Shown: positions 16,336 to 46,910 of the stretch, one piece after another
Position numbering within the stretch: position 1 is the stretch's first letter
Layout: each line of letters begins with the position of its first letter
IMG/VR virus record: IMGVR_UViG_3300028844_004047
Span: 16,350 to 80,349 of that record
Direction: 5' to 3' (one strand)
Source: a virus
DNA: 64,000 nt
The notes under the pieces: model-generated
What the model was told of the DNA's origin: nothing
Seen by the model: the letters and a program-made list of their open reading frames with translations, nothing else
Database searches by the model: none
Translations under genes and position numbers: made by a program

Positions 16336-16371
16336 TGCGTTATATTTTTTTATTTAATAAGGATAATAATA

Positions 16372-34671: not shown

Positions 34672-35922
34672 ATGAATCATTTAGTAGTTTATCCAGGTAG
34701 ATTTCATCCTTTTCATAAGGGCCATGCTAGTGTATATAATGCATTAGTAAAGAAATTCGGTGCGGATAAAGTATTCATATCAACAAGTGATAAAGTTGTT
34801 CCACCTAAAAGTCCTTTCTCATTCGAAGAAAAGAAAAAGATGATGATGCTTACAGGTGTTCCTGAAAGTGCTATTATTCAAACTAAAAATCCATACCAAG
34901 CACAAGAACTTGTTTCAAAGTATGATCCTGCAGATACTATATTAATGTTTGCAGTGAGTGAAAAGGATATGGCTGAAGATCCACGTTTTACATTCCAACC
35001 TAAAAAAGATGGTAGCCCTAGTTACTTTCAAAAAGCAGGTAAGGATATGCAGTCATTAGATAAGCATGGATATATTGTTGCAGTACCTACTTTAAGTTTT
35101 AAAGTATTAGGTAAGCCAATGAAAAGTGCAACAGAATTTAGAAGTAATTTTGCAAAAGCAGATACTGACACACAAGAGAAAATGATTACAGATTTATTTG
35201 GAAAATATGATCCTAGTGTACACGAATTAATGACAGCCAAAATTACAGAAATGGCAGATTTGTATAACAAGTATCCTGTTTATAAAAAAGTTCCAGAAGC
35301 CGCAGGTGTTGGTATTGTTACAAAACAAAACGCAACTAAAGATAGCCCTGTAGGCAGTGAATATGACAACGTAAAGAAATTAAAATTAAGTAGTAAAAGT
35401 AAAAAGCCGTACATCTCTAGAATGATGGAAGTAACAAAAGCAATAAAAGAGTTAAAAGAAGCAAAGGCGCTAACAGTTCAGGATTCCATGAAGATCAATA
35501 GTAAACTAGAACAGTTGAAAGCAGTAGTTCAAATACATAACAACACAAAGATTGTTGAAAGCCTGTATGCATTAGACAAAGAAGACATTATGAACAGTGA
35601 AGTATTAGTTCAAGGTGTTGGACGTTATAGCATTAAGTCATTAATGGCAAATGTTCATAGCAAGTTACAAGACTTGTCCGATGAAGCAGGTAAAAATGAA
35701 CCAACTAATTTTAAAAATATCAAAAGTAAACTAGACAGCGGAATATTGCAATTAATGGTTAAGTCGTTGGAAGATGCTTTTAATCAAATCGAAAATACTA
35801 GACGTGCAGGTGGTAAAGCCAGTCAAGGTATTCCTAAAAATGTTTTTGATAGTTTTGAAACAGATTTAAGGGAATCATGGCAAAAAAGAAAATTGACGAA
35901 AAACAATACTGGACAAAATTAA
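34672..35922 (+). CDS. Cytidylyltransferase/NMNAT-like nucleotidyltransferase with long C-terminal extension
   Basis: 416 residues. Residues 1-160 have the HxGH signature PGRFHPFHKGHASVYNAL and a distant SATEFRSNF (matching the ISSTxIR-type motif). These enzymes transfer a nucleotidyl group, for example onto NMN or phosphocholine. Residues ~190-416 are helical and unrelated to known transferases. Late expression and clustering with virion-accessory genes suggest the protein is packaged or acts in assembly (inference). Confidence 0.7.
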   Translation: MNHLVVYPGRFHPFHKGHASVYNALVKKFGADKVFISTSDKVVPPKSPFSFEEKKKMMMLTGVPESAIIQTKNPYQAQELVSKYDPADTILMFAVSEKDMAEDPRFTFQPKKDGSPSYFQKAGKDMQSLDKHGYIVAVPTLSFKVLGKPMKSATEFRSNFAKADTDTQEKMITDLFGKYDPSVHELMTAKITEMADLYNKYPVYKKVPEAAGVGIVTKQNATKDSPVGSEYDNVKKLKLSSKSKKPYISRMMEVTKAIKELKEAKALTVQDSMKINSKLEQLKAVVQIHNNTKIVESLYALDKEDIMNSEVLVQGVGRYSIKSLMANVHSKLQDLSDEAGKNEPTNFKNIKSKLDSGILQLMVKSLEDAFNQIENTRRAGGKASQGIPKNVFDSFETDLRESWQKRKLTKNNTGQN

Positions 35923-36173
35923 AAAAGAAGTCGCCTAAATACCCAGACTTTACTTGTCCTAGTGTAGACGATATACTAGAACGTATTGCAAAAGTTCAAA
36001 GTAAACAAAAATTATCACAGTGGCAACACAAATTGATAATAAAGAGAATGGAAGAGTTAAGAACAGACAATGAACAGTTGAGAGAAAGTGGCAGATACTG
36101 GCACGAAACTTGTAAAACAACAGTTGAAGATATGTTTGACCTTAACAAAGAAAGTAAATGGAAGAAAAAATAA
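35877..36173 (+). CDS. Small coiled-coil protein
   Basis: 98 residues, lysine-rich N-terminus (MAKKKIDEKQYWTKLKKK) and a heptad helix (KRMEELRTDNEQLRESGRYW). It overlaps the preceding gene by 46 bases in another frame and its stop overlaps the next start (TAATG). Function unknown. Confidence 0.55.
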   Translation: MAKKKIDEKQYWTKLKKKSPKYPDFTCPSVDDILERIAKVQSKQKLSQWQHKLIIKRMEELRTDNEQLRESGRYWHETCKTTVEDMFDLNKESKWKKK

Positions 36174-37594
36174 TGTCTTATTCGTGGTTAAAAGAATATT
36201 CAAATGACAGTGTACCTGTTACACAAGGTGACTTGAATAAACTTGAAGACTATGCTGACAAGTTATTTTCTAAAGTTGGTGTAGACGTAGAGTTTACTAG
36301 ACACTTTCTTGATAGAGTAAATGATACTCGTAACCAAAAACAAATTAATGTTGCAGAACTTATTAGAATCTTTAAGCAAGAGTACAAGTACTACGGCAAA
36401 AAGATTGCACAACTAGGTCCAGATGCAGAAGCAGTAATGAAAGATATGAGAACAGATGTTAACATACCATTTGCTTTACGTTGGGATAGTGCTAATAACG
36501 AACTAGATCTCATTGCTAAAACTGTGATGCGTAAGAAAGATTTTAAAACTAGTAATCCTGAATTTGCAGTAGAAGAATTTAGTTGGACTGAAGCAGAAGA
36601 AGATAACACTAAAGAATGGCAAAAGATGTATGGCGATTATGCAGAGACAAACATCTTTGAAGACTTGGCACCCGAGTCTGAATTATATGTAGATATGGAC
36701 GGCGTACTTGCAGACTTTTTTGGCGAGTGGGCTAAACTAATGGGTGTGGACAGTTGGCGTAATATTAAAGACATTGATTCAGCATTAAACAAAATTAAAC
36801 AACAGCCTAACTTTTGGATTAACTTACCAATGACAAGTAATGCTTTACAACTATTAAGTGCCATTAAAGCATATAAAGGCAAATATAATATATTAAGTGC
36901 TCCATTAGCCGGCGATAAAAATAGTGTCCCACAAAAGAAAGAATGGATTAAAAAGAATTTAAGTTCTTTCCCACCACAAAAAATTATTATAGATCCTAAC
37001 AAATCTAAATATGCTAAACAACCAGACGGAACACCAAACGGTTTAATTGATGACTATGGTGATAATATTCGTAAATGGGAACAAGCAGGCGGTATTGCTA
37101 TTAAACATAATAACAAAAACATAGATAGAACTATATCTAAATTGGATTCAGAAATTAACGAAGATCCATTCCATGATATTAGTAGATTTATTAACAGAAT
37201 AACTTCACCAAAATCATACAAATATGCAGTAGAATTGTTACATAAAATTCTACAACGTAAAGAACAAGAAGATGGTAAACTAAAACATAGTTTAGGTTAC
37301 TATGCTCAATCAGTAGCAAATACTATTAAAGGTGCTGATTGGCGTAATATAGTAAAATTATATATTAAGCAGTATGGCGATGAAGCCGTTTTACAAGACG
37401 ACGTGATAAAAGAAAACGGTATAATTACAGATCAAAATACTACTGATGATGTTAAACCGGGAGAAACACAACGACAAGCATTAAAATTTGGAAATAAGAT
37501 AGATAAAAAAGGTAGTCCGCCGTTACTACACACATCAGCGGCGAAAAACAGTGACCCTAACACATTAAGCAACTTAGGTATAGGGAATAAATAA
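36173..37594 (+). CDS. Multidomain late protein with HAD phosphatase domain
   Basis: 473 residues from ATG 36173 (GGAAG RBS; TAATG overlap); an upstream ATG at 36158 has no RBS. N-terminal MSYSWLKEY carries an LxE tripeptide near residue 8. Residues ~30-135 form a domain (VEFTRHFLDRVNDTRNQKQI, RWDSANNELDLIAKTVMRKK) recurrent in marine phage virion-region proteins. Residues ~165-325 are HAD-like (YVDMDGVLADFFGEW, ILSAPLAGDKNSV, GLIDDYGDNIRKWE). The tail is disordered. Confidence 0.65.
   Translation: MSYSWLKEYSNDSVPVTQGDLNKLEDYADKLFSKVGVDVEFTRHFLDRVNDTRNQKQINVAELIRIFKQEYKYYGKKIAQLGPDAEAVMKDMRTDVNIPFALRWDSANNELDLIAKTVMRKKDFKTSNPEFAVEEFSWTEAEEDNTKEWQKMYGDYAETNIFEDLAPESELYVDMDGVLADFFGEWAKLMGVDSWRNIKDIDSALNKIKQQPNFWINLPMTSNALQLLSAIKAYKGKYNILSAPLAGDKNSVPQKKEWIKKNLSSFPPQKIIIDPNKSKYAKQPDGTPNGLIDDYGDNIRKWEQAGGIAIKHNNKNIDRTISKLDSEINEDPFHDISRFINRITSPKSYKYAVELLHKILQRKEQEDGKLKHSLGYYAQSVANTIKGADWRNIVKLYIKQYGDEAVLQDDVIKENGIITDQNTTDDVKPGETQRQALKFGNKIDKKGSPPLLHTSAAKNSDPNTLSNLGIGNK
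37586..37593 (+). promoter_or_regulatory. Possible T4-like late promoter
   Basis: AATAAATA overlapping the preceding stop, 20 bases before ATG 37614 with AAGGAG between. Confidence 0.5.
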
Positions 37595-37613: not shown

Positions 37614-37919
37614 ATGGATTATCAAGATAGAGTACAATGGATCGTCGAGGAACTAGATAGTTTATTAGAAGATTTTACAGGAAAAGAAAAACCTGGAAGT
37701 CGCCCAGGCAGTTTAAAACGCAAAGCGGCACAGTACTTAGGCAAAGGTGCTGGCGATAAGTTAAGTAAAACAGATTTAAAAAACCTTAGAGCTAAAGCAA
37801 ATCATTTAAAAAAAAGTTCTAAGAAAAGTGAGAGAGACAGAGGCAACCAATTAGCAAAGCAAGTTAATTTTGCATATAACTTTAAGGTAGCCGAAGATAA
37901 AAACAATGAGATTATTTGA
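37614..37919 (+). CDS. Small basic late protein
   Basis: 101 residues. The N-terminus is helical and acidic; residues 23-90 are very basic (GSRPGSLKRKAAQYLGKGAG, NLRAKANHLKKSSKKSERDR), ending QVNFAYNFKVAED. It looks like a DNA-associated internal virion protein. It overlaps the next gene by fourteen bases. Confidence 0.58.
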   Translation: MDYQDRVQWIVEELDSLLEDFTGKEKPGSRPGSLKRKAAQYLGKGAGDKLSKTDLKNLRAKANHLKKSSKKSERDRGNQLAKQVNFAYNFKVAEDKNNEII

Positions 37920-38094
37920 ATTAGAACAAAAAGCATTAACGGAAGAACAGTTTGACGAAGCGGCTGGTAAAAAGGACGCTTGTTATCATAAAGTTAAATC
38001 ACGTTATAAAGTTTGGCCCAGTGCCTATGCCAGCGGTGCACTAGTTAAGTGTAGAAAAGTTGGTGCGGCTAATTGGGGTAAAAGTAAAAAGTAA
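37906..38094 (+). CDS. Small basic late protein with MRLFE N-terminus
   Basis: 62 residues. MRLFELEQKALTEEQ contains an LxE tripeptide (LFE) close to the N-terminus like its neighbours. The rest (CYHKVKSRYKVWPSAYASGA, LVKCRKVGAANWG) is a small basic two-cysteine module. Overlaps both flanking genes. Candidate internal head protein. Confidence 0.58.
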   Translation: MRLFELEQKALTEEQFDEAAGKKDACYHKVKSRYKVWPSAYASGALVKCRKVGAANWGKSKK

Positions 38095-38396
38095 TGAGAG
38101 CATCTGAATTTATCAGTGAAGACCTAAGAGCATGGTTCGGCAAAGGCAAGAAGGGCGGAGCCGGAGGTGGTGGTTGGGATCGCTATAATACTAAAGGCGA
38201 ACGTATTGGTAAATGCGGAGATAGAAGCAAAGGTGAAGGCAAACCTAAATGCTTGTCTAAATCACGTGCGGCTAGTTTAAGAGCCAAGGGCGGTAAAAAA
38301 GCAATCGCGGCGGCTGTTAATAAAAAACGCAGAGATGATCCAAAAAAGAATCGCAAAGGCAAAGCGAAAAACGTTTCTAATAAAGTTAAAAAATAG
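38094..38396 (+). CDS. Very basic late protein with MRASEFISE capsid-targeting-like N-terminus
   Basis: 100 residues. MRASEFISE closely resembles the T4 capsid-targeting sequence MKTYQEFIAE, which T4 protease gp21 cuts after I/LxE. The mature part would be glycine/lysine-rich (GKGKKGGAGGGGWD, then NKKRRDDPKKNRKGKAKNV), suited to binding packaged DNA. The start overlaps the previous stop (TAATG). Inference: internal head protein. Confidence 0.62.
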   Translation: MRASEFISEDLRAWFGKGKKGGAGGGGWDRYNTKGERIGKCGDRSKGEGKPKCLSKSRAASLRAKGGKKAIAAAVNKKRRDDPKKNRKGKAKNVSNKVKK

Positions 38397-38399
38397 TTC

Positions 38400-38428
38400 T
38401 TGACTTTATGATCAAAATTATGTATTAT
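38400..38428 (+). promoter_or_regulatory. Sigma70-type promoter
   Basis: TTGACT (38400-38405) and TATTAT (38423-38428), spacer 17, before the oxygenase-like gene. It is an early-type promoter inside the late region. Confidence 0.65.
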
Positions 38429-38453
38429 ACAAGCATAAGGAAAACAATCAAAC

Positions 38454-39239
38454 ATGGCGCATAAAGACGACAAATATACCAAAGACGGTAAAAAGATCGA
38501 CTGGATAAAAAACAGACCTTCAGCACCTAATTACTATAAACATAGATTCATTAATGATGGTGTTACTGCATGGCAAATGCCTGACCCATCACAAGAAGAT
38601 ATTATGTGTGAGTTACAATTACAAGCCATTGGCGACTTTGCTCCTTTAGATATTACAATAGATGAAAGTTTATTTAGAAAAGAATTAAAACAATACGAAG
38701 ATAAATGGGTACCTTACTTAAGACGTGAAGGGGTTACTAATGATAGAGAAGGATTATTGTTAGTAGGTGCTGAAGGAGATTCAGTAGGAGATAGTTTAAG
38801 TATGCCTGAAGTTAGAAAACGTTTAGGCGAAATACCAGGTAAACGTCTTTTAGAAACAGATTTATGTTACCCAACAGAAGCATTTCATAATTTAACTGCC
38901 TTATACCCAATAACAAAATACTTTGATAAGTTAGGCAGATCCATGCTAGTAAAATTAAACAAAGGCGGTTGGTTCCCACCACATAGAGATACACCACAAT
39001 TAAGCAGAGATTGTTTTAGAGTGGTAGGCTTCTTAAGTAGAAGTTGTGGGCATGGTGGATTTATGTGGGAACATGATTATAGACCTGTACAAATAGAACC
39101 TATGCGTTGTTATTATGCAGATACAAGAAAAACTCATAGAACCGCGGCATTTGATTCCGATATTATTCATTTAGTAATTAACGTTCCTAAAACTTGGGAA
39201 AACGTATTAAAATTATTAAGTATCACCGAACATCATTAA
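38454..39239 (+). CDS. 2OG-Fe(II)/aspartyl-hydroxylase-like oxygenase
   Basis: 261 residues. The C-terminal core has KGGWFPPHRDTPQLSRDCFR (HxD iron ligands), GFMWEHDYRPVQIEPMRCYY, then KTHRTAAFDSDIIHLVINV with the distal His and a basic residue for 2-oxoglutarate. The pattern resembles the aspartyl/asparaginyl beta-hydroxylase branch. Substrate unknown. It has a host-like promoter, unlike its late neighbours. Confidence 0.68.
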   Translation: MAHKDDKYTKDGKKIDWIKNRPSAPNYYKHRFINDGVTAWQMPDPSQEDIMCELQLQAIGDFAPLDITIDESLFRKELKQYEDKWVPYLRREGVTNDREGLLLVGAEGDSVGDSLSMPEVRKRLGEIPGKRLLETDLCYPTEAFHNLTALYPITKYFDKLGRSMLVKLNKGGWFPPHRDTPQLSRDCFRVVGFLSRSCGHGGFMWEHDYRPVQIEPMRCYYADTRKTHRTAAFDSDIIHLVINVPKTWENVLKLLSITEHH

Positions 39240-39242
39240 TTA

Positions 39243-39250
39243 CATAAATA
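39243..39250 (+). promoter_or_regulatory. T4-like late promoter with immediate start codon
   Basis: CATAAATA followed by CTAGT and the ATG at 39256, leaving no room for a Shine-Dalgarno; predicted leaderless transcript. Confidence 0.6.
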
Positions 39251-39255
39251 CTAGT

Positions 39256-39483
39256 ATGAAAATTTGGGAAATAACATCAATAGACGACAGTGTAACCGAA
39301 GACGCAACACCGGGTGCTACAGATAGTGGTGCAATGGCTGGAGCGGCTGTGGCATTTCCATTGTTTGGCGATCCTAAAAAGGCTCGTAAAGCAGTAGATC
39401 CATACGGATATACAACGCCTAAGGGTAAAAAGAAGACTAAATTCCCACCATACACTAAAAAAGTTAAATCAATATTCGCATAA
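39256..39483 (+). CDS. Small late protein
   Basis: 75 residues. N-terminal MKIWEITSIDDSVTEDATPG, then an Ala/Gly hydrophobic stretch (GAMAGAAVAFPLFGD) and a basic end (PKGKKKTKFPPYTKKVKS). No RBS; the start lies five bases after CATAAATA. Function unknown, perhaps an internal virion peptide precursor. Confidence 0.5.
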   Translation: MKIWEITSIDDSVTEDATPGATDSGAMAGAAVAFPLFGDPKKARKAVDPYGYTTPKGKKKTKFPPYTKKVKSIFA

Positions 39484-39552
39484 TCCACTGTTTAAGTATA
39501 GTGTATTAATGTCTATTGGTGTTAATATAAGATAGTTTATTTGTTCATAAAG

Positions 39553-39560
39553 AATAAATA
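39553..39560 (+). promoter_or_regulatory. T4-like late promoter
   Basis: AATAAATA 29 bases before ATG 39590; TTGGAG RBS. Confidence 0.6.
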
Positions 39561-39589
39561 CAACATAGTACAAAGAAATTGGAGTTATT

Positions 39590-39934
39590 ATGAGAGCAAA
39601 ACACTTTAAAAAGAAAATTAATGAAGATGTGTCCTCTGACGCCAAATTAATGGAATTAGACCACGAAGTAAACATGGCAAAAAGCGATTTGTATAAAATC
39701 GCCAAGTATGCTATTGAACTTCATAAAATCTTACAAAATGTATCCGAAGAACAAGGCCTTGAAGGCTGGGTACAGGCAAAAATTACAAAATCGGCAGATT
39801 ATATGAGTAGTGTTAAACACCACTTAGAATACAAGGAACCAGGTGATGATGTTCAAATCGTTGCGGTACCTGCCGAACAACCTCAGGCTGAGATGCCAGC
39901 AATTCAACCACAAGAGTCAATCAAGGAAGAGTAA
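39590..39934 (+). CDS. Late protein with MRAKHFKKKINE N-terminus
   Basis: 114 residues. MRAKHFKKKINED resembles the capsid-targeting-like starts of the neighbours and contains INE, an I/LxE tripeptide. Helices follow (LMELDHEVNMAKSDLYKIAK), and the tail is Glu/Pro/Gln-rich. One base separates its stop from the next ATG. Candidate internal or scaffold-associated protein. Confidence 0.58.
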   Translation: MRAKHFKKKINEDVSSDAKLMELDHEVNMAKSDLYKIAKYAIELHKILQNVSEEQGLEGWVQAKITKSADYMSSVKHHLEYKEPGDDVQIVAVPAEQPQAEMPAIQPQESIKEE

Positions 39935-39935
39935 T

Positions 39936-40679
39936 ATGTCAGAAGATTTTGCAACACTAGTATCTAAACTTAATGAAATGTCAGAAGATAATTATCAAAA
40001 AGAAGAAGAAGTAACAAAAGAAGTTGTTACTGAATCTGCAAATGATATGCGTGGCATATTAGACAAGTTTAATACAGTTACAGAATCTAACATATTAGCA
40101 CAAAAAGGCAATGTCAAAATGGTAATGACTGAAAGTCATACAGACCATTTTAACGTTGATGTTATGATCGATGATGATGTTGTTGCTAGTGGTCAATATG
40201 ACAGACTAGATAATGCATATACAATCGATAGCGATGACTTTACTAGTGCTGACGAAGTATTAGAAGCATTCGCACAAACGGCACATGAAGAAGGCAAAGA
40301 GTTTAAAGAATCAGAAGTTGTAGCAGAAGCAACACCTGATGAAGCCTATGTTCATAATATGTTTGAAAAAGCATCAGCAATGATTAATTCATTGGAAAAA
40401 GTATTTAGACAAGATGGTTTAATGATGAAGAAGATTGATGCTATTGGTGGTGACACTAGTTGTTGCAATCGTATAGCAGAAGCTCTGTCAGATGCATATG
40501 AATCATTAGAAGATGGTCACTATGATGCAATGGCACATATTCATAACGAAAGTAAATTAAAAGCAGAACTAGAGGCGGCTTTAAATGAAGAGCCTGTAGA
40601 AGAAGAAAAGAAAAACTGCGGTTGCGGACAAGATCCGTGTGTAACATACGGTGAGGAAAAAAGCAATGAAAGTGAATGA
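39936..40679 (+). CDS. Acidic late protein, function unknown
   Basis: 247 residues from ATG 39936 (AAGGAAGAG RBS); the frame is open further upstream but overlaps the previous gene. Highly acidic with a small domain at ~60-130 (VKMVMTESHTDHFNVDVMID, ASGQYDRLDNAYTIDSDDF) and a helical region (DEAYVHNMFEKASAMINSLE). The end has a cysteine cluster, NCGCGQDPC, possibly metal-binding. It overlaps the next start by fourteen bases. Confidence 0.58.
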   Translation: MSEDFATLVSKLNEMSEDNYQKEEEVTKEVVTESANDMRGILDKFNTVTESNILAQKGNVKMVMTESHTDHFNVDVMIDDDVVASGQYDRLDNAYTIDSDDFTSADEVLEAFAQTAHEEGKEFKESEVVAEATPDEAYVHNMFEKASAMINSLEKVFRQDGLMMKKIDAIGGDTSCCNRIAEALSDAYESLEDGHYDAMAHIHNESKLKAELEAALNEEPVEEEKKNCGCGQDPCVTYGEEKSNESE

Positions 40680-42723
40680 TATCAATTCTAATAAATTAGA
40701 ATCTCGTAAATTTTATAGTGAAGAAGAACTAGCAGAATTATTTGGTATAGGTAAAAAAGAAACACCTGTTAAACAAAGTGATGCTTTTAAAGTTTTACAA
40801 AATATTGAAATGAGAAAATCAGGAACACATCCTGTAAAATTCAGTGATGGTTACACAGTTGATATTGATCCAATAATTGCAAAAAAAATTAATGCCTGGG
40901 TAGCAAAAAGAGATAAGAAAGATCAAGCAGGTGCAGAAGGTTTAGTACGCAGTTGGGAAGGCTTTCAAAAGATTGCTAAAGTATTAGGTATACAAGATAA
41001 ACTTCCAGTTCCAAGAACTGTTGAAGATACCAATGAATCAGAAAAGCGTTGGAAACAAACTAGTATGTCTCCAGCAGAAGCAGAAAAAGAATACGGTAAA
41101 GAAAACGTAAAAGTTAAAAAAGGTGCATTGCGTAATGGCGATGACATGGTAGAAGTATTTGTTGAAGATACAAACGAAGAATTAAATGCTATTTTATCAT
41201 TAGCAGGTATTAGCACAATGACACCAGTACAGGCGATTGTTGCAGAATCTAAAGAAGAAGTAACAGAAATGAACAAGTATGGTATTTCGGCTGTACATAA
41301 AGGCGGAAAGTTTTATGCATTTAGACATGGTAAAATGGTCGGTGGACCTTTTGATACTATGCAAGAGTTACAAGACTTCCAACTAAAAAGTATTGAAAAC
41401 GAATCATATGATATGACACCAGGTGGTCAAGTTGAGTATGAATTTACAAAAGCAGATTTCCTTGCTAACGAAGATGAGAATATGCATACTGAAAATGCAA
41501 TGGAACTTGTAGCAAAGTTTGGTACTGAAGAAGAAATTAAACGCATGGAAATGATTATGACTGCACACAATACACGTGGTCACATTGAGCCTGCTGAACA
41601 AGAAGAACGTGATAGTTATGTTAGAAAATACTATCCAATGTTAGAAGATACTGTAGAAGAAGTAGCAAGTCCAGAAGAACAAGCACAGCCAAGCAGTGTT
41701 GCTATGGACACATTAAGATTGATTGTTACTAACAAACAAAATATGCCAGTTAAGTTTGCAGATGGTCAAATGAAAGTTGACTTATATACTGCAAGTGCTA
41801 TTACACAAGTATATGATAAAGTTAACGACGCTAATAAACAAAAGATGCTTAATATGTTAGGTACTAAAGAAGGTATGGTTAAATTAACTAACCTTGTGTT
41901 TGGTATGCTAAACAAAAAAGAAAGCATTGGTGAAGGACTAGAACAAGATTTAGTTGATATGTACAAAGGCGATGGCGAAGCAGGTCTTGCCGATTATATT
42001 ATCACACACTTAGGTGTAGATGAAAAACAATTTGAAAAAGAATTTGAAAAAGCCGGAAATGCAATGAAGTTTATTAAAAACTTCGTAGCAAAACAAAATG
42101 AAGGTAAGAGTCCACATAAAAAAGGTACTGCAAAGTATAAGAAGCATATGGCGGCAATGCACGCCGAAAGTTTAGAAATTTCCGAAGATGCATACAATCG
42201 TATTGAAGCATTTAGAGATAGCAGATTACAAGAACTATCATCTACAGAATCAGATGAGGTTAAAGGAATATTAGAAGACTTTGAAAAAGACGAAGTTAAA
42301 ATAATATTAGACAAACATGATGTTAAAAGTATAGACGATATAGAACTTGGTTCTGAAGTTTATGAAGAATTATTTGCATATTATATGGATTCAGGTGAAA
42401 TGCCATACGGTGTAATGAAAGCCAGAACTGGTATGCCAGATGAATGGATTGCAGATAGATTAGACGATTTAGGTCTTTTAGAGCAAAACATTGAAAGCAA
42501 TAACGTATTTAATAATTTACAAGATGTAAAAAGAACAAGTGAAGGTGAAGAGAACATGGCACAAGCAAAGGCTATGAGAGGTTCACAGTTTACAGATAAA
42601 CAAATTAAAATGGCATTTGGTATTTTAAACGATCCAAAGTTTAAAGGTGGTAACTATAGTGGAGCAGTTGAAGTTATTAACAAAGTTGCACCAGGTTTAG
42701 CAGATCATCCATCAGTAGAGTGA
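40666..42723 (+). CDS. Large acidic virion-region protein (frame likely continues past 42723)
   Basis: 685 residues from ATG 40666 (GAGGA eight bases upstream). It has a mosaic of short modules separated by Glu-rich linkers: PVKFSDGYTVDIDPIIAKKI, MNKYGISAVHKGGKFYAFRH, MPVKFADGQMKVDLYTASAI (a diverged repeat of the first), KSPHKKGTAKYKKHMAAMHA, and FTDKQIKMAFGILNDPKFKG. It stops at TGA 42721, while an open frame shifted by +1 continues directly to 43426, suggesting a frameshift within one gene of about 920 codons. Confidence 0.62.
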   Translation: MKVNDINSNKLESRKFYSEEELAELFGIGKKETPVKQSDAFKVLQNIEMRKSGTHPVKFSDGYTVDIDPIIAKKINAWVAKRDKKDQAGAEGLVRSWEGFQKIAKVLGIQDKLPVPRTVEDTNESEKRWKQTSMSPAEAEKEYGKENVKVKKGALRNGDDMVEVFVEDTNEELNAILSLAGISTMTPVQAIVAESKEEVTEMNKYGISAVHKGGKFYAFRHGKMVGGPFDTMQELQDFQLKSIENESYDMTPGGQVEYEFTKADFLANEDENMHTENAMELVAKFGTEEEIKRMEMIMTAHNTRGHIEPAEQEERDSYVRKYYPMLEDTVEEVASPEEQAQPSSVAMDTLRLIVTNKQNMPVKFADGQMKVDLYTASAITQVYDKVNDANKQKMLNMLGTKEGMVKLTNLVFGMLNKKESIGEGLEQDLVDMYKGDGEAGLADYIITHLGVDEKQFEKEFEKAGNAMKFIKNFVAKQNEGKSPHKKGTAKYKKHMAAMHAESLEISEDAYNRIEAFRDSRLQELSSTESDEVKGILEDFEKDEVKIILDKHDVKSIDDIELGSEVYEELFAYYMDSGEMPYGVMKARTGMPDEWIADRLDDLGLLEQNIESNNVFNNLQDVKRTSEGEENMAQAKAMRGSQFTDKQIKMAFGILNDPKFKGGNYSGAVEVINKVAPGLADHPSVE

Positions 42724-43426
42724 ATGCTGTGATGCTCCATTAGACAATTATCAAAACGAATTAGGTATTTGTAGTGATTGTGGAGAACACGCCGGTGCTC
42801 ATAATGTTGATGAATCAGTTGATATCAATACAGGAAAACCAGTACCTAAAACTAATTTTATGGGCGTTAATGTAAGAAGTAAAGAAGATAGAATTAGAGA
42901 TAAAGAAACACAAATTGCACTAGCAAAACGTAACGCACCTAAAAGTGGATTGAAAGCAAAAGATGTTCCACAGTTAGAAAAAGAACTTGCTGATCTTAAA
43001 AATGAAGGGTATGCAAGATTACCTGATATGCCTGAGAAGTATGTAGCAAGAGATGGACTAGAAGGTCCTATTATGACACGTTCAGGTAAAGTTGTTTACT
43101 ACGATAACGTAGAAGGCAAATACTATGATCCAGACACAGATATGTATTTGACATACGATGAATGGAAAGCATATGATTTCATAGGCTGGCAATTACCAAT
43201 TAAACAAGAAGACGAAGTTATGGAAGAAAAATTAACTGTAACAATGGCAGACATGAAGTTAAACACTAAAGCATATCAAAATCTTTTAAAAGGCGACGAA
43301 AAGTATATTGCTGATAAAGAATTGATGAAACACATTTTAGCAAATGGCGGTAGAGAAAAATTAGCCGCAAGTTGCAATTATGAAAGTGCTGAATTAGACC
43401 GTTTAAAGCATCTGTCAGGATTGTAA
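42719..43426 (+). CDS. Continuation of the preceding gene in +1 frame (zinc-finger plus C-terminal module)
   Basis: Open from 42719 without a usable start until ATG 42860. The first 25 codons encode ECCDAPLDNYQNELGICSDC and GEH, a zinc-ribbon-like pattern that would be untranslated if the ATG at 42860 were used. After it come KNEGYARLPDMPEKYVARDG and TRSGKVVYYDNVEGKYYDPD. Best read as the C-terminal part of the protein starting at 40666, joined by +1 frameshift near 42716-42719, or as a sequencing indel. If not, a 188-residue protein starts at 42860. Confidence 0.5.
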   Translation, partial: SECCDAPLDNYQNELGICSDCGEHAGAHNVDESVDINTGKPVPKTNFMGVNVRSKEDRIRDKETQIALAKRNAPKSGLKAKDVPQLEKELADLKNEGYARLPDMPEKYVARDGLEGPIMTRSGKVVYYDNVEGKYYDPDTDMYLTYDEWKAYDFIGWQLPIKQEDEVMEEKLTVTMADMKLNTKAYQNLLKGDEKYIADKELMKHILANGGREKLAASCNYESAELDRLKHLSGL

Positions 43427-43430
43427 TAGA

Positions 43431-43625
43431 ATGTCCTTTAAGGACACAAACTACGCCGCCTTAGATTATTGTCAAAATTGCGGACATGGATCACATTGCG
43501 GAGGTTCTTTATGGAAAGAAGTAATAGACTATCCGTCCGAACAACCAAAAGAATACAGACAAATAGAAGTTTGTAAACATTGTAGATGTAAAAAATGCTT
43601 AACGAACGACAACAAAGTATCTTAA
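43431..43625 (+). CDS. Small zinc-ribbon protein
   Basis: 64 residues with CQNCGHGSHC near residue 14 and CKHCRCKKC near residue 48, eight or more potential zinc ligands. It overlaps the next gene by 31 bases. Probably nucleic-acid or protein binding; no family recognised. Confidence 0.5.
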   Translation: MSFKDTNYAALDYCQNCGHGSHCGGSLWKEVIDYPSEQPKEYRQIEVCKHCRCKKCLTNDNKVS

Positions 43626-44092
43626 ACAAAACTTCTCCTACACTCATCATTAAAAATTTTATATCTGAACCAGAACAGATACACTTACTAAACATACACA
43701 AAGATAGACCAGATTCTGAAAAAGTATTTAAGAATACAGGTCCTATTGCTAGTAAGTTACCACATAAAGACGACGGACACTTCCAAAATATAATGAGTAG
43801 AGTTGAAGACGTACTTCGTACAAAAGTAAAACCATTCGGTGGTAATTACTTCACTGTACGACATCCACATATACTACACAATGATGTACCACACGACCAT
43901 AATATTATACCTGGTAAGTGTATAGTATTACCATTGGAAAAAGTATATACAAAATATCAATTTCCTATGTTAGATGACGCACAGTTTTATATCTTTGATC
44001 AAATGTATTTTGATCGTCCAGTTAAACATATGAAGATGTTTATAACTTACATGAAGACAATAGACTACCTGACACAAAAACAGGACATATGA
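43595..44092 (+). CDS. 2OG-Fe(II) oxygenase-like protein, N-terminal part (probable frameshift)
   Basis: 165 residues. SPTLIIKNFISEPEQ, then YFTVRHPHILHNDVPHDHNI with a candidate HxD iron site (HND), PGKCIVLPLEKV. The reading stops at TGA 44090, but a frame offset by -1, open from 44026 to 44253, encodes the missing core with the distal His (GDAIIFDCARLHCASNF and KTGLSIFTEY). The frame change must fall within about 44023-44090, most plausibly before NLHEDNRLPDTKTGH. Natural frameshift, mutation or sequence error remain open. Confidence 0.55.
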   Translation: MLNERQQSILNKTSPTLIIKNFISEPEQIHLLNIHKDRPDSEKVFKNTGPIASKLPHKDDGHFQNIMSRVEDVLRTKVKPFGGNYFTVRHPHILHNDVPHDHNIIPGKCIVLPLEKVYTKYQFPMLDDAQFYIFDQMYFDRPVKHMKMFITYMKTIDYLTQKQDI

Positions 44093-44253
44093 AAGATGAG
44101 TGGCTAGAAGGATTTAGTGTTGAATCTGCTTGTAATTGGGTACCAGGTGATGCTATTATATTTGATTGTGCTAGACTACATTGTGCTAGTAACTTTATGG
44201 ATAATGGTATAGAAGAAAAAACCGGATTAAGTATCTTTACGGAGTATGCATAA
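44026..44253 (+). CDS. 2OG-Fe(II) oxygenase C-terminal part in shifted frame
   Basis: 76 open codons, with an internal ATG at 44089. Encodes LHEDNRLPDTKTGHMKDEWL, then NWVPGDAIIFDCARLHCASN and EKTGLSIFTEYA, which carries the third iron ligand His and the conserved GD(x)IIFD strand of oxygenases. It is the natural end of the gene starting at 43595. The stop overlaps the SGNH hydrolase start (TAATG). Confidence 0.5.
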   Translation, partial: TYEDVYNLHEDNRLPDTKTGHMKDEWLEGFSVESACNWVPGDAIIFDCARLHCASNFMDNGIEEKTGLSIFTEYA

Positions 44254-44963
44254 TGATATTCACGTTTGGAGATAGTTGGACTGCAAAATGGCAAAGTTAT
44301 AAACCATGGCCCGCACTATTAGATAAACCAAGTAAAAACTTCGCCGCGGCTGGTTCTAGTAATAAACAAATACTTGACCAAGTATGCGAAGCAAGTTTAG
44401 ATTATCCAGACGAAGACGTAGAAGCAATTATAGTTGCATTTACAAGTATCAATAGAATGACTGTTAATATTAGTGTTAACAGTGAATTGTGTATATCAGA
44501 CCATCCAGATCCTTGGTATGCAGATGTACAACAAAGAGTATTTGATGATGGAGTAACATTAAAAAATGTTATGGAATATTCATTATACAACTTTCACGCA
44601 ATTGAATGCGTGGCAAAACAAACTTGGGATTGTGACGTGTATTTTATACCTGTCTTTGAAGATGACGATTATTGGAGGAAACAAGAACCTTTTTTACAAT
44701 ACAGCCTAATAAACTTATTGCACTTTGAAGAAAAGCAAAAGTATTTCATGTATAACTGTCCTGTGTATGAATTAGGGTATATGCAAGATCCTAATGAACT
44801 TGGACAAGCATGGTTAGATAAGAACTGTGATAGTAATTGGCGTAAAGCACACTTTGAAAGAAGTGATTATACTTTAAATAGTAACTTATTTGACAATACA
44901 CAACACCCTAATCAACGAGGACACGAGATACTAGCAAATTATTTTAATAAAGTTTTGAGCTAA
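44253..44963 (+). CDS. SGNH/GDSL-like hydrolase
   Basis: 236 residues. Block I is FTFGDSWTAKW (catalytic Ser near residue 8), a Gly/Asn region AAAGSSNKQI, then block V DNTQHPNQRGHEILANYF with His as base. SGNH enzymes are esterases, lipases or deacetylases; in phages they may modify host surface polysaccharide or lipid, which is inference here. Start codon overlaps the oxygenase stop. Confidence 0.7.
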   Translation: MIFTFGDSWTAKWQSYKPWPALLDKPSKNFAAAGSSNKQILDQVCEASLDYPDEDVEAIIVAFTSINRMTVNISVNSELCISDHPDPWYADVQQRVFDDGVTLKNVMEYSLYNFHAIECVAKQTWDCDVYFIPVFEDDDYWRKQEPFLQYSLINLLHFEEKQKYFMYNCPVYELGYMQDPNELGQAWLDKNCDSNWRKAHFERSDYTLNSNLFDNTQHPNQRGHEILANYFNKVLS

Positions 44964-44966
44964 ATA
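44959..44966 (+). promoter_or_regulatory. Late-promoter-like element directly before a start codon
   Basis: GCTAAATA followed by CTAAT and ATG 44972; one mismatch to NATAAATA. Same arrangement as 39243 and the minus-strand 2909 element. Confidence 0.45.
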
Positions 44967-44971
44967 CTAAT

Positions 44972-45547
44972 ATGAAATACAAAGATATATTACCAGTCAA
45001 CGAAGGTGTACAATATCACCAAACAAATAAGATCCCGCTTCACGAATCAATTTTTCGTTTAGGCAGTGACGAATACTTTCAAATGTTTAGAGATGCAAGG
45101 AAACTATATGCAGAAGGTAAGTTAAAAGACTTACATCCATATGATGAAGAAATACTTCGCGATACATTGCTTGGAGAGTGGGAACAGTTAAGAGTAGGTA
45201 ATGTGCCTTTGGATATGATTATCAGCGAAGAGAATCATCAAGCATTCTTAGAAGCAGAGTATCAAGGCAAAAAAGTAAGTTTAAATAAACCTAAACGTGG
45301 TGGCAGTAAAAAGTTTTATGTGTATACAAAAAACAAAAAAGGCAATGTTATTAAAGTATCCTTTGGTGCCGACAGCGGTGGCGGAAAATTAGCAGTTAAG
45401 TTAAGAGATCCAAAAGCAAGAAAAGCCTTTGCAGATAGACATAATTGTGATCAAAAGAACGACAAAACTAAAGCAGGTTATTGGAGTTGCCGTTTACCAC
45501 GTTATGCAAAAAGTTTAGGATTAAGTGGTGGCGGAACTTGGTGGTAA
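44972..45547 (+). CDS. Late protein with basic conserved C-terminal module
   Basis: 191 residues. N-terminal MKYKDILPVNEGVQYHQTNK resembles the short leader peptides of neighbours. The C-terminal 90 residues (GGSKKFYVYTKNKKGNVIKV, RKAFADRHNCDQKNDKTKAG, YWSCRLPRYAK) form a basic module with two cysteines, conserved in marine T4-like phages in my reading. Probably DNA-associated virion protein. No Shine-Dalgarno before the start. Confidence 0.58.
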   Translation: MKYKDILPVNEGVQYHQTNKIPLHESIFRLGSDEYFQMFRDARKLYAEGKLKDLHPYDEEILRDTLLGEWEQLRVGNVPLDMIISEENHQAFLEAEYQGKKVSLNKPKRGGSKKFYVYTKNKKGNVIKVSFGADSGGGKLAVKLRDPKARKAFADRHNCDQKNDKTKAGYWSCRLPRYAKSLGLSGGGTWW

Positions 45548-45815
45548 TGCTTTTCCTTTTGTAGAGGAAAACCTTTCAAAAAATAGACGAATTAGAATGT
45601 TCCCAGAAACTGTTTGGGAAGAAGATTTAGTGTGGCACAGAGATGCTGAAGACCGTACTATTAAAGTTATTAGTAGCAATGGTTGGAAATTGCAAATGGA
45701 CAATGAACTGCCTAAGGACTTAATAATAGGCGAATCGCATTTTATTCCTAAAAAAGAGTATCATAGGGTAATCAAAGGCGAAGGTGAATTGATTGTAGAA
45801 ATAGTATCTGATTAA
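45525..45815 (+). CDS. Small cupin-like protein
   Basis: 96 residues from a GTG within the preceding gene (23-base overlap; GTG 45528 or ATG 45597 are alternatives). ENLSKNRRIRMFPETVWEED, LVWHRDAEDRTIKVI, then GESHFIPKKEYHRVIKGEGE show cupin-like strand order with HRD and YHRV histidines that could bind metal. Function unknown. Confidence 0.55.
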   Translation: MVAELGGNAFPFVEENLSKNRRIRMFPETVWEEDLVWHRDAEDRTIKVISSNGWKLQMDNELPKDLIIGESHFIPKKEYHRVIKGEGELIVEIVSD

Positions 45816-45823
45816 GATAAATA
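45816..45823 (+). promoter_or_regulatory. T4-like late promoter
   Basis: GATAAATA overlapping the preceding stop, 22 bases before ATG 45846. Confidence 0.65.
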
Positions 45824-45845
45824 GTTTATATTATAGGAATACACA

Positions 45846-46910
45846 ATGAGAGCAAGACAGTTTTTAAAAGAATATACAGATTTAAGTACTGCTAAAGCAG
45901 AAATACTTAAAAGTATCAATGCCATTGACCCGGACACAAAAGATGAAGATGCCCGTGCAAAAGCAGAAAAAGTATTAGATAAGATTTACACTGTTCTTAA
46001 TAAAAACTCAGTGCTAGACAGATTCACATCAGTACTACCATCCATACTTAAAGATGAATACAACGATACGCAGATAATGAAAATTGCCGGTGAAATTGCG
46101 AAGGCGCCATTATCCTATGCTGAAAAAATGAAGTTCACAGAAAATCTAGCAAGTAATAAAGTAATCAATGCCAAAGTATTAGTAACACCAGGTACATATA
46201 CTATTGATAAATTATGTTATGATAGTTCACTTAACAAAGAAGTATTTTTACATTTAAGAAGTTACGGTGTTGGACAACAAATGAAAGGTCCAATGGAACA
46301 CGCATTGGCAATTTTAAGTTCAGGTATTAGTATTAAAGGTAAAGGTGATGTTACAGTAGGTACTACTCCTGTAGAAGTTAAAGCGGCAATTGGTGAGAAA
46401 AAAGGTTCAGGCGGTGGACGTTTTGGTGAAGCCGGTGAAGTTCCAGGTAGAGAGGCTATGATTGCCATCATACAATCATACGAATGGTTAGCAGGTCCTG
46501 TTAATGAATACCTAGAAGGACAAGCAAGTCTAAACGTTGAGAATTTTACAAAAATTGTTAATGCCACAGGTGCAGAACCGAGTGAACGTAAAAAACTTGG
46601 TGATGAGATATTTGGCAAAATCTTCCCAGGCAAGTCAGGACAAATTGTTTCAGTATTCCAAAATAAAAACGCAGACCCCAATGAAGTTAGAAAAGCATAT
46701 ATCAAAGCAAACTTTGATTGGTACAAAGATTCAGACATGGGCGGTGCTTGGCAAGTACTAGTAGGAATTAGTATGGCAGATAACTCCGTGGGAGTTATGA
46801 AGGATTCTAGCGATTTCGATAAAGTTGCTACTGCTAAAAAGAACCCAGCAATCATTACCACTGGTAAACCAATGGAAATGTTATTCCAATTTAATCCAAA
46901 ATTATCATAA
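45846..46910 (+). CDS. PD-(D/E)XK-like nuclease with capsid-targeting-like N-terminus
   Basis: 354 residues. MRARQFLKEY matches the pattern of the T4 capsid-targeting sequence MKTYQEFIAE, with LKE as a gp21-type cleavage site. Residues ~148-195 read GPMEHALAILSSGISIKGKG, DVTVGTTPVEVKAAIGEKKG. They show E151, D168 and the ExK pair E177/K179 in the order of restriction-endonuclease-fold nucleases, followed by a glycine-rich GGGRFGEAGE. It is expressed from a late promoter. Inference: a nuclease packaged in the head and injected with the genome. Confidence 0.58.
   Translation: MRARQFLKEYTDLSTAKAEILKSINAIDPDTKDEDARAKAEKVLDKIYTVLNKNSVLDRFTSVLPSILKDEYNDTQIMKIAGEIAKAPLSYAEKMKFTENLASNKVINAKVLVTPGTYTIDKLCYDSSLNKEVFLHLRSYGVGQQMKGPMEHALAILSSGISIKGKGDVTVGTTPVEVKAAIGEKKGSGGGRFGEAGEVPGREAMIAIIQSYEWLAGPVNEYLEGQASLNVENFTKIVNATGAEPSERKKLGDEIFGKIFPGKSGQIVSVFQNKNADPNEVRKAYIKANFDWYKDSDMGGAWQVLVGISMADNSVGVMKDSSDFDKVATAKKNPAIITTGKPMEMLFQFNPKLS

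Follow-up and report, generated by a model that had tools for sequence, protein, structure and literature searches.

Leader-bearing genes in the window

The window analysed here is a stretch of 64,000 nucleotides, running from position 16350 to 80349 in a viral contig of 80,349 bases; the gene counts given below are from the whole contig. The phage is an uncultured marine relative of T4. Sequenced phages yielded no nucleotide relative of the tested contig region; the best relatives of the window are uncultured marine contigs, the largest of which (G003; 306,714 bases; hereafter the 306-kb relative) carries the same genes as the window region, and the distant cultured relatives belong to the Kyanoviridae, for example, Methylophilales phage Melnitz and Pelagibacter phage HTVC008M. 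An earlier note had drawn attention to five genes whose products begin with a similar short leader, at 36173 (MSYSWLKE), 37906 (MRLFELE), 38094 (MRASEFISE), 39590 (MRAKHFKKKINE) and 45846 (MRARQFLKE). All five N-termini are present on the plus strand at these positions and their start codons are backed by orthologues in relatives; two members of the same stretch, at 39256 and 44972, had been missed. The genes are listed below by start position, with an arrow at the predicted cut.

34672..35922, plus strand: cytidyltransferase-like protein without a leader (MNHLVVYPGRFHP); PF01467, E=1.5e-8
36173..37594, plus strand: leader MSYSWLKE↓Y, followed by a FLDRVN domain (phrog_23027-like) and a 5'(3')-deoxyribonucleotidase-like domain (NT5C); orthologues and profile matches
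37906..38094, plus strand: 62-aa basic protein, MRLFELEQKALTE↓E, with a phrog_727-like body; ambiguous site, LFE or LTE
38094..38396, plus strand: 100-aa basic, glycine-rich protein, leader MRASEFISE↓D; orthologues MRAVEFISE and MRYSEIISE
39256..39483, plus strand: 75-aa protein, leader MKIWEITSIDDSVTE↓D; orthologues VNE↓E, VKE↓D and VVE↓D
39590..39934, plus strand: 114-aa protein, leader MRAKHFKKKINE↓D; orthologues KINE↓D, KTLNE↓D (one codon longer) and KPLKE↓N
44972..45547, plus strand: 191-aa protein, leader MKYKDILPVNE↓G; orthologue LLPISE↓G
45846..46910, plus strand: 354-aa protein, leader MRARQFLKE↓Y, body with an invariant E...D...ExK pattern; homologues FLRE, FLIE, LIRE and KLVE

A short hydrophobic or aromatic leader ending in [I/L]xE is found in 45846, 39590 and 38094; 36173 and 37906 fit this description more loosely, and P3 is Val in 39256 and 44972. 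For 37906, ALTE↓E is a better conserved candidate site than LFE↓L, and for 38094 the assignment is ambiguous: a leaderless homologue in cyanophage Sf-CH8 starts MKEDLRKWFG, so that the E-D following the leader may be part of the folded body. These two genes are the weakest cases, and both are ambiguous. The two proteins match different stretches of one PHROG, phrog_727 (positions 253-307 and 108-194, respectively), and their modules thus occur fused in other phages.

Searches of Pfam, PHROG and NCBIfam mostly returned no named family for the leader-bearing bodies. The protein encoded at 36173, whose orthologues begin MSYSWLRE, MSYKWLRE or MSYSWLRES, matches phrog_2643 (E=1.6e-23) and PF06941 (E=5.8e-6). 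Its orthologue in the 306-kb relative (G003:69146-71401; L018) has 751 residues as compared to 473, and the C-terminal part of the window protein (residues 271-470) matches further downstream in it, at 53% identity, pointing to a possible insertion or duplication. In the 45846 body, E151, D168 and E177-x-K179 are invariant in seven homologues, a pattern from which a PD-(D/E)XK nuclease is possible. Pfam and PDB gave no sequence match for this protein and tblastn no match for its body in phage records; the AlphaFold model is weak (pLDDT 67), with no fold match in the PDB and, in BFVD, matches to only two uncharacterised phage proteins. Upstream of a distant 45846 homologue lies a gene for a 260-aa protein with a leader-like start, MRYKEVIPE↓Q (L047:3215-3994); by eye it gave the impression of an ADP-ribosyltransferase, which no family match bore out.

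Late-promoter-like sites

The motif ATAAATA occurs 18 times on the plus strand of the window and once on the minus strand, mostly 18-41 nt upstream of a start codon; it is rarer than shuffles predict (19 copies vs 41), and all copies but one follow the coding strand. The sites that bear on the leader genes are:

37587..37593, plus strand: late-promoter-like site, 20 nt upstream of gene 37614, with a predicted transcript continuing into 37906 and 38094
39244..39250, plus strand: site just 5 nt upstream of the 39256 start codon
39554..39560, plus strand: late-promoter-like site, 29 nt upstream of gene 39590
45817..45823, plus strand: late-promoter-like site, 22 nt upstream of gene 45846

Most of the leader genes had been said to follow late promoters. 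The sites are real, but among the five genes first named only 39590 and 45846 have one directly upstream; others directly precede 34672, 37614 and 39256, and the remaining named genes lie downstream of ATAAATA sites on the same strand. ATAAATA is also found upstream of the 45846 homologues in L038-L047. As a late promoter, TATAAATA was discarded, having a single copy in the window; the looser NATAAATA works. From the distribution of ATAAATA, the late transcription units can be mapped directly (e.g., 2947, 8051, 13711, 25011, 28843 and 33546).

Enrichment and conservation of the predicted cut site

When genes are called by a simple ORF finder, which makes the counts approximate, M[KR] followed by [IL]xE ending at residues 7-13 is found in 4 of 133 genes of the contig as compared to 1.09 in shuffles (p=0.0195). 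The enrichment from the contig alone is weak; the same motif is found 11 times in the 306-kb relative (3.3 expected; p=0.0005) and 10 times in the cultured phage Melnitz (2.1 expected), a number reached in none of 2000 shuffles.

Within the window families, compared over orthologues at 67-99% identity, Glu at P1 and Ile, Leu or Val at P3 are retained in all seven, whereas P2 changes in five, as one would anticipate where a protease cuts. The site reads LKE or LRE in the 36173 family, VTE, VNE, VKE or VVE in that of 39256, VNE or ISE in that of 44972, and LKE, LRE or LIE in that of 45846, with IRE (L045) and LVE plus an extra residue (L047; about 40% identity) in more distant homologues. The 39590 family has INE, LKE and, in a leader one codon longer, LNE, so that [IL]xE is retained across an indel (KINE, TLNE, PLKE). 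ISE is found throughout the 38094 family and LTE throughout that of 37906.

The invariance of P2 among the few orthologues of 37906 and 38094 fits a mixed set, in which 45846, 39590, 39256, 44972 and perhaps 36173 would carry true propeptides, the other two being small basic proteins with ordinary N-termini that merely resemble them; the ED shared by 38094 and MKEDLRKWFG fits as well. Such an arrangement is possible, though we lean against it. The orthologues of 38094 vary elsewhere in the leader while keeping I-S-E, FISE resembles the FLSE of Melnitz (see below), and small basic internal proteins are the classic cargo of the T4 head.

The leaders could also reflect chance or a bias at translation starts, where MK or MR and A-rich codons are favoured, [IL]xE being a common tripeptide. 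That the contig-only test is weak and the motif search was post hoc is in keeping with this explanation, which we nevertheless regard as very improbable. The codons vary synonymously (eight codons are used at P3, and both GAA and GAG at P1), implying a constraint on the protein and not on translation initiation; the persistence of [IL]xE across the indel in the 39590 family and the counts in independent loci described next also speak against it.

Leaders in related marine phages

Three body families, DUF6267, a P-loop kinase and the cytidyltransferase, were gathered from IMG/VR. For DUF6267, 48 of 63 distinct leaders have [IL]xE as compared to 12.4 in shuffles (maximum 22 in 2000), and for the P-loop kinase, which shows similarity to Zeta toxin, 37 of 39 (7.6 expected). 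All 68 close relatives of the cytidyltransferase with a full N-terminus start M[KRI][KST]F[SK][ED][IL]xEA, x being I, R or V. A template based on the T4 leader, M..[hydrophobic]..[hydrophobic][ILVM].E, fits 55 of 595 distinct N-termini of well-supported ORFs in related loci, against 0.7 in shuffles (maximum 5) and 0.55 as predicted from positions inside these proteins. Of the 55 matches, about 30 are DUF6267, itself a search query, and are therefore not independent. A strict form of the template gives 28 matches (0.0 and 0.016 expected). The other matches, about 25, are spread over some 16 additional clusters, among them further kinases, a HAD-phosphatase-like protein (FDIDDTLF) and several unknowns. 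Such leaders also occur on genes that lie next to each other; at L174, for instance, adjoining genes have the leaders MKTFKQFIKE↓A and MKSFEQILSE↓GLYDPGIF.

The leader is a removable module, present or absent on the same body in different homologues. DUF6267 proteins begin MYSFKQYLNE↓AKNTHLEHLED with the leader, and MAKNTHLEHLED or, in Syn33, MPNKHLEHLED without it; in Melnitz the kinase body, GxYDPxIFKA, immediately follows LQE, and in HTVC008M it follows LKE. In Melnitz, the C-terminal module of 44972 is joined to a leader-bearing cytidyltransferase. The cytidyltransferase at 34672 and its orthologues are leaderless, whereas the homologues in Melnitz and cyanophage S-SM1 have the leader and that of HTVC008M begins MKTLKELLRKK, a leader without an obvious cut site; the cargo would thus differ between phages.

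One group of DUF6267 proteins starts MFSFKGF[IFVT]T[KRQT], in which the aromatic residues at positions 4 and 7 are kept and the P1 Glu is missing (loci L146, L149, L156-L159, L166, L174, L177, L181, L184 and L210). Neighbours of these genes on the same contigs keep [IL]xE. From their N-termini, the proteins of this group are possibly targeted to the head and left uncut.

Links to the phage head

The earlier note had suggested locating the prohead protease gene. Both gp21 and gp23 were searched for and are absent from the 80-kb contig, which is incomplete; the 306-kb relative, which has genes for a prohead protease of the gp21 type (PF03420; E=3.3e-29) and for the gp23 major capsid protein (E=2.3e-99), was thus used as a stand-in. 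In the gp23 alignment, the T4 site FLTE↓A corresponds to LSE↓A in Melnitz, Sf-CH8 and the 306-kb relative, and in Melnitz FLSE↓A occurs both at the gp23 site and in a leader, MQGFKTFLSE↓A. The product of gene 197861 of the 306-kb relative starts with the leader MKTFKQYLME↓N and is similar to a PHROG annotated as virion structural protein.

Targeting by the T4 leader depends on its residues 4 and 7, processing on residues 8 and 10, and the two functions are separable (PMC9026906). Detection of the T4-GC190 cytidyltransferase by mass spectrometry has been reported for purified virions of cyanophage S-SM1 (PMC3037559). The N-terminus of this protein is MKKFSAFLNE↓A, and F4, F7, L8 and E10 are at the positions that matter in T4.

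The separability of targeting and processing leaves room for a different role, in which the leaders would serve as docking tags while the virion is assembled (scaffold, neck or tail) and would stay uncut or not be cut by gp21. The MFSFKGFITK form of DUF6267, with its aromatic positions kept and Lys at P1, would suit such a role. We consider it unlikely for the leaders as a whole, as P1 Glu is strictly retained while P2 varies, and the same [IL]xE↓A is found at the gp23 maturation site.

A model for head-packaged proteins

The comparisons lend good support to the proposal of the earlier note that the leaders are T4-like capsid-targeting sequences, two of its five examples (37906 and 38094) being ambiguous. 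We consider it likely that they are T4-type capsid-targeting propeptides, and that the proteins are packaged in the head and cut there by a protease of the gp21 family. This reading draws on the fixed P1 and P3 with a free P2, on the presence of the leaders on unrelated bodies, on the gp21 gene and matching gp23 site of a relative, on the matching leader of a protein found in cyanophage virions, and on the late-promoter-like sites. Against it are the homologues that have a leader but no cut site (MFSFKGFITK; MKTLKELLRKK in HTVC008M), the leaderless cytidyltransferase at 34672, the marginal enrichment in the contig and the lack of gp21 and gp23 from it. In the model, the leader-bearing proteins would be made late and would dock to the prohead scaffold core through the leader's hydrophobic or aromatic residues; a protease of the gp21 family would then cleave after [I/L/V]xE, and the mature proteins would remain alongside the DNA in the head and probably accompany it into the host.

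The internal proteins IPI-III and Alt of T4, whose capsid-targeting sequence (CTS) is cut by gp21, are alike in having an N-terminal leader of about 10 residues with a hydrophobic or aromatic first part, an [I/L]xE cut motif, and similar leaders on unrelated bodies; their genes are late, as is predicted for those of the window from the ATAAATA sites (PMC9026906; PMC3012670; PMC5694885). In contrast to the T4 internal proteins, the bodies found here, known from sequence alone, are unrelated and include enzyme-like domains, and the leaders have 8-15 residues, often begin MRA instead of MKT, and also use Val at P3. T4-GC190 of S-SM1 has the same type of leader on an enzyme body found in virions, whereas its homologue in the window is leaderless; for GC190, the accessible part of the report describes presence and not cleavage (PMC3037559). 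The ejection proteins of phiKZ and SPN3US are similar in that many head proteins are cleaved after Glu and some enter the host; they differ in the motif, S/A-x-E or A-x-E, and in their mostly long propeptides (about 125 residues), as compared to the short leaders ending in [ILV]xE described here (PMC5694885; PMC9026906).

Loading of varied proteins by the CTS mechanism has already been suggested for T4-like phages in work on T4 (PMC9026906). A literature search, conducted mostly without subscription papers, found no account of leaders of this kind from cyanophages or pelagiphages. The mechanism itself has its precedent in T4; the wide range of cargo among marine T4-like phages, together with the specific members found here, appears to be new. 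In a broader version of the model, which we advance tentatively and whose chances we put a little short of even, marine T4-like phages as a group would package many enzymes in the head as a modular set (cytidyltransferases, nucleotidases, P-loop kinases, DUF6267 proteins and possible nucleases), with interchangeable, cleavable leaders; these enzymes would be delivered at the start of infection, before phage gene expression, and would alter nucleotide and NAD metabolism or attack the host DNA. Should the leader prove to mark head cargo, one signature in the sequence would predict virion-borne genes among the many unknowns of abundant ocean phages, and the proteins so predicted could be the first to act in the host. 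Genes annotated as auxiliary metabolic or hypothetical would then become a testable class of possibly injected proteins, with clear predictions for existing virion proteomes, which GC190 in S-SM1 already fits.

A second cluster of leader genes is found in the 306-kb relative, in a region outside the contig (G003:159166-165747; L023), with the N-termini MKASDFITE and MRISDLFEE and a DUF6267 protein with ILNE↓A.
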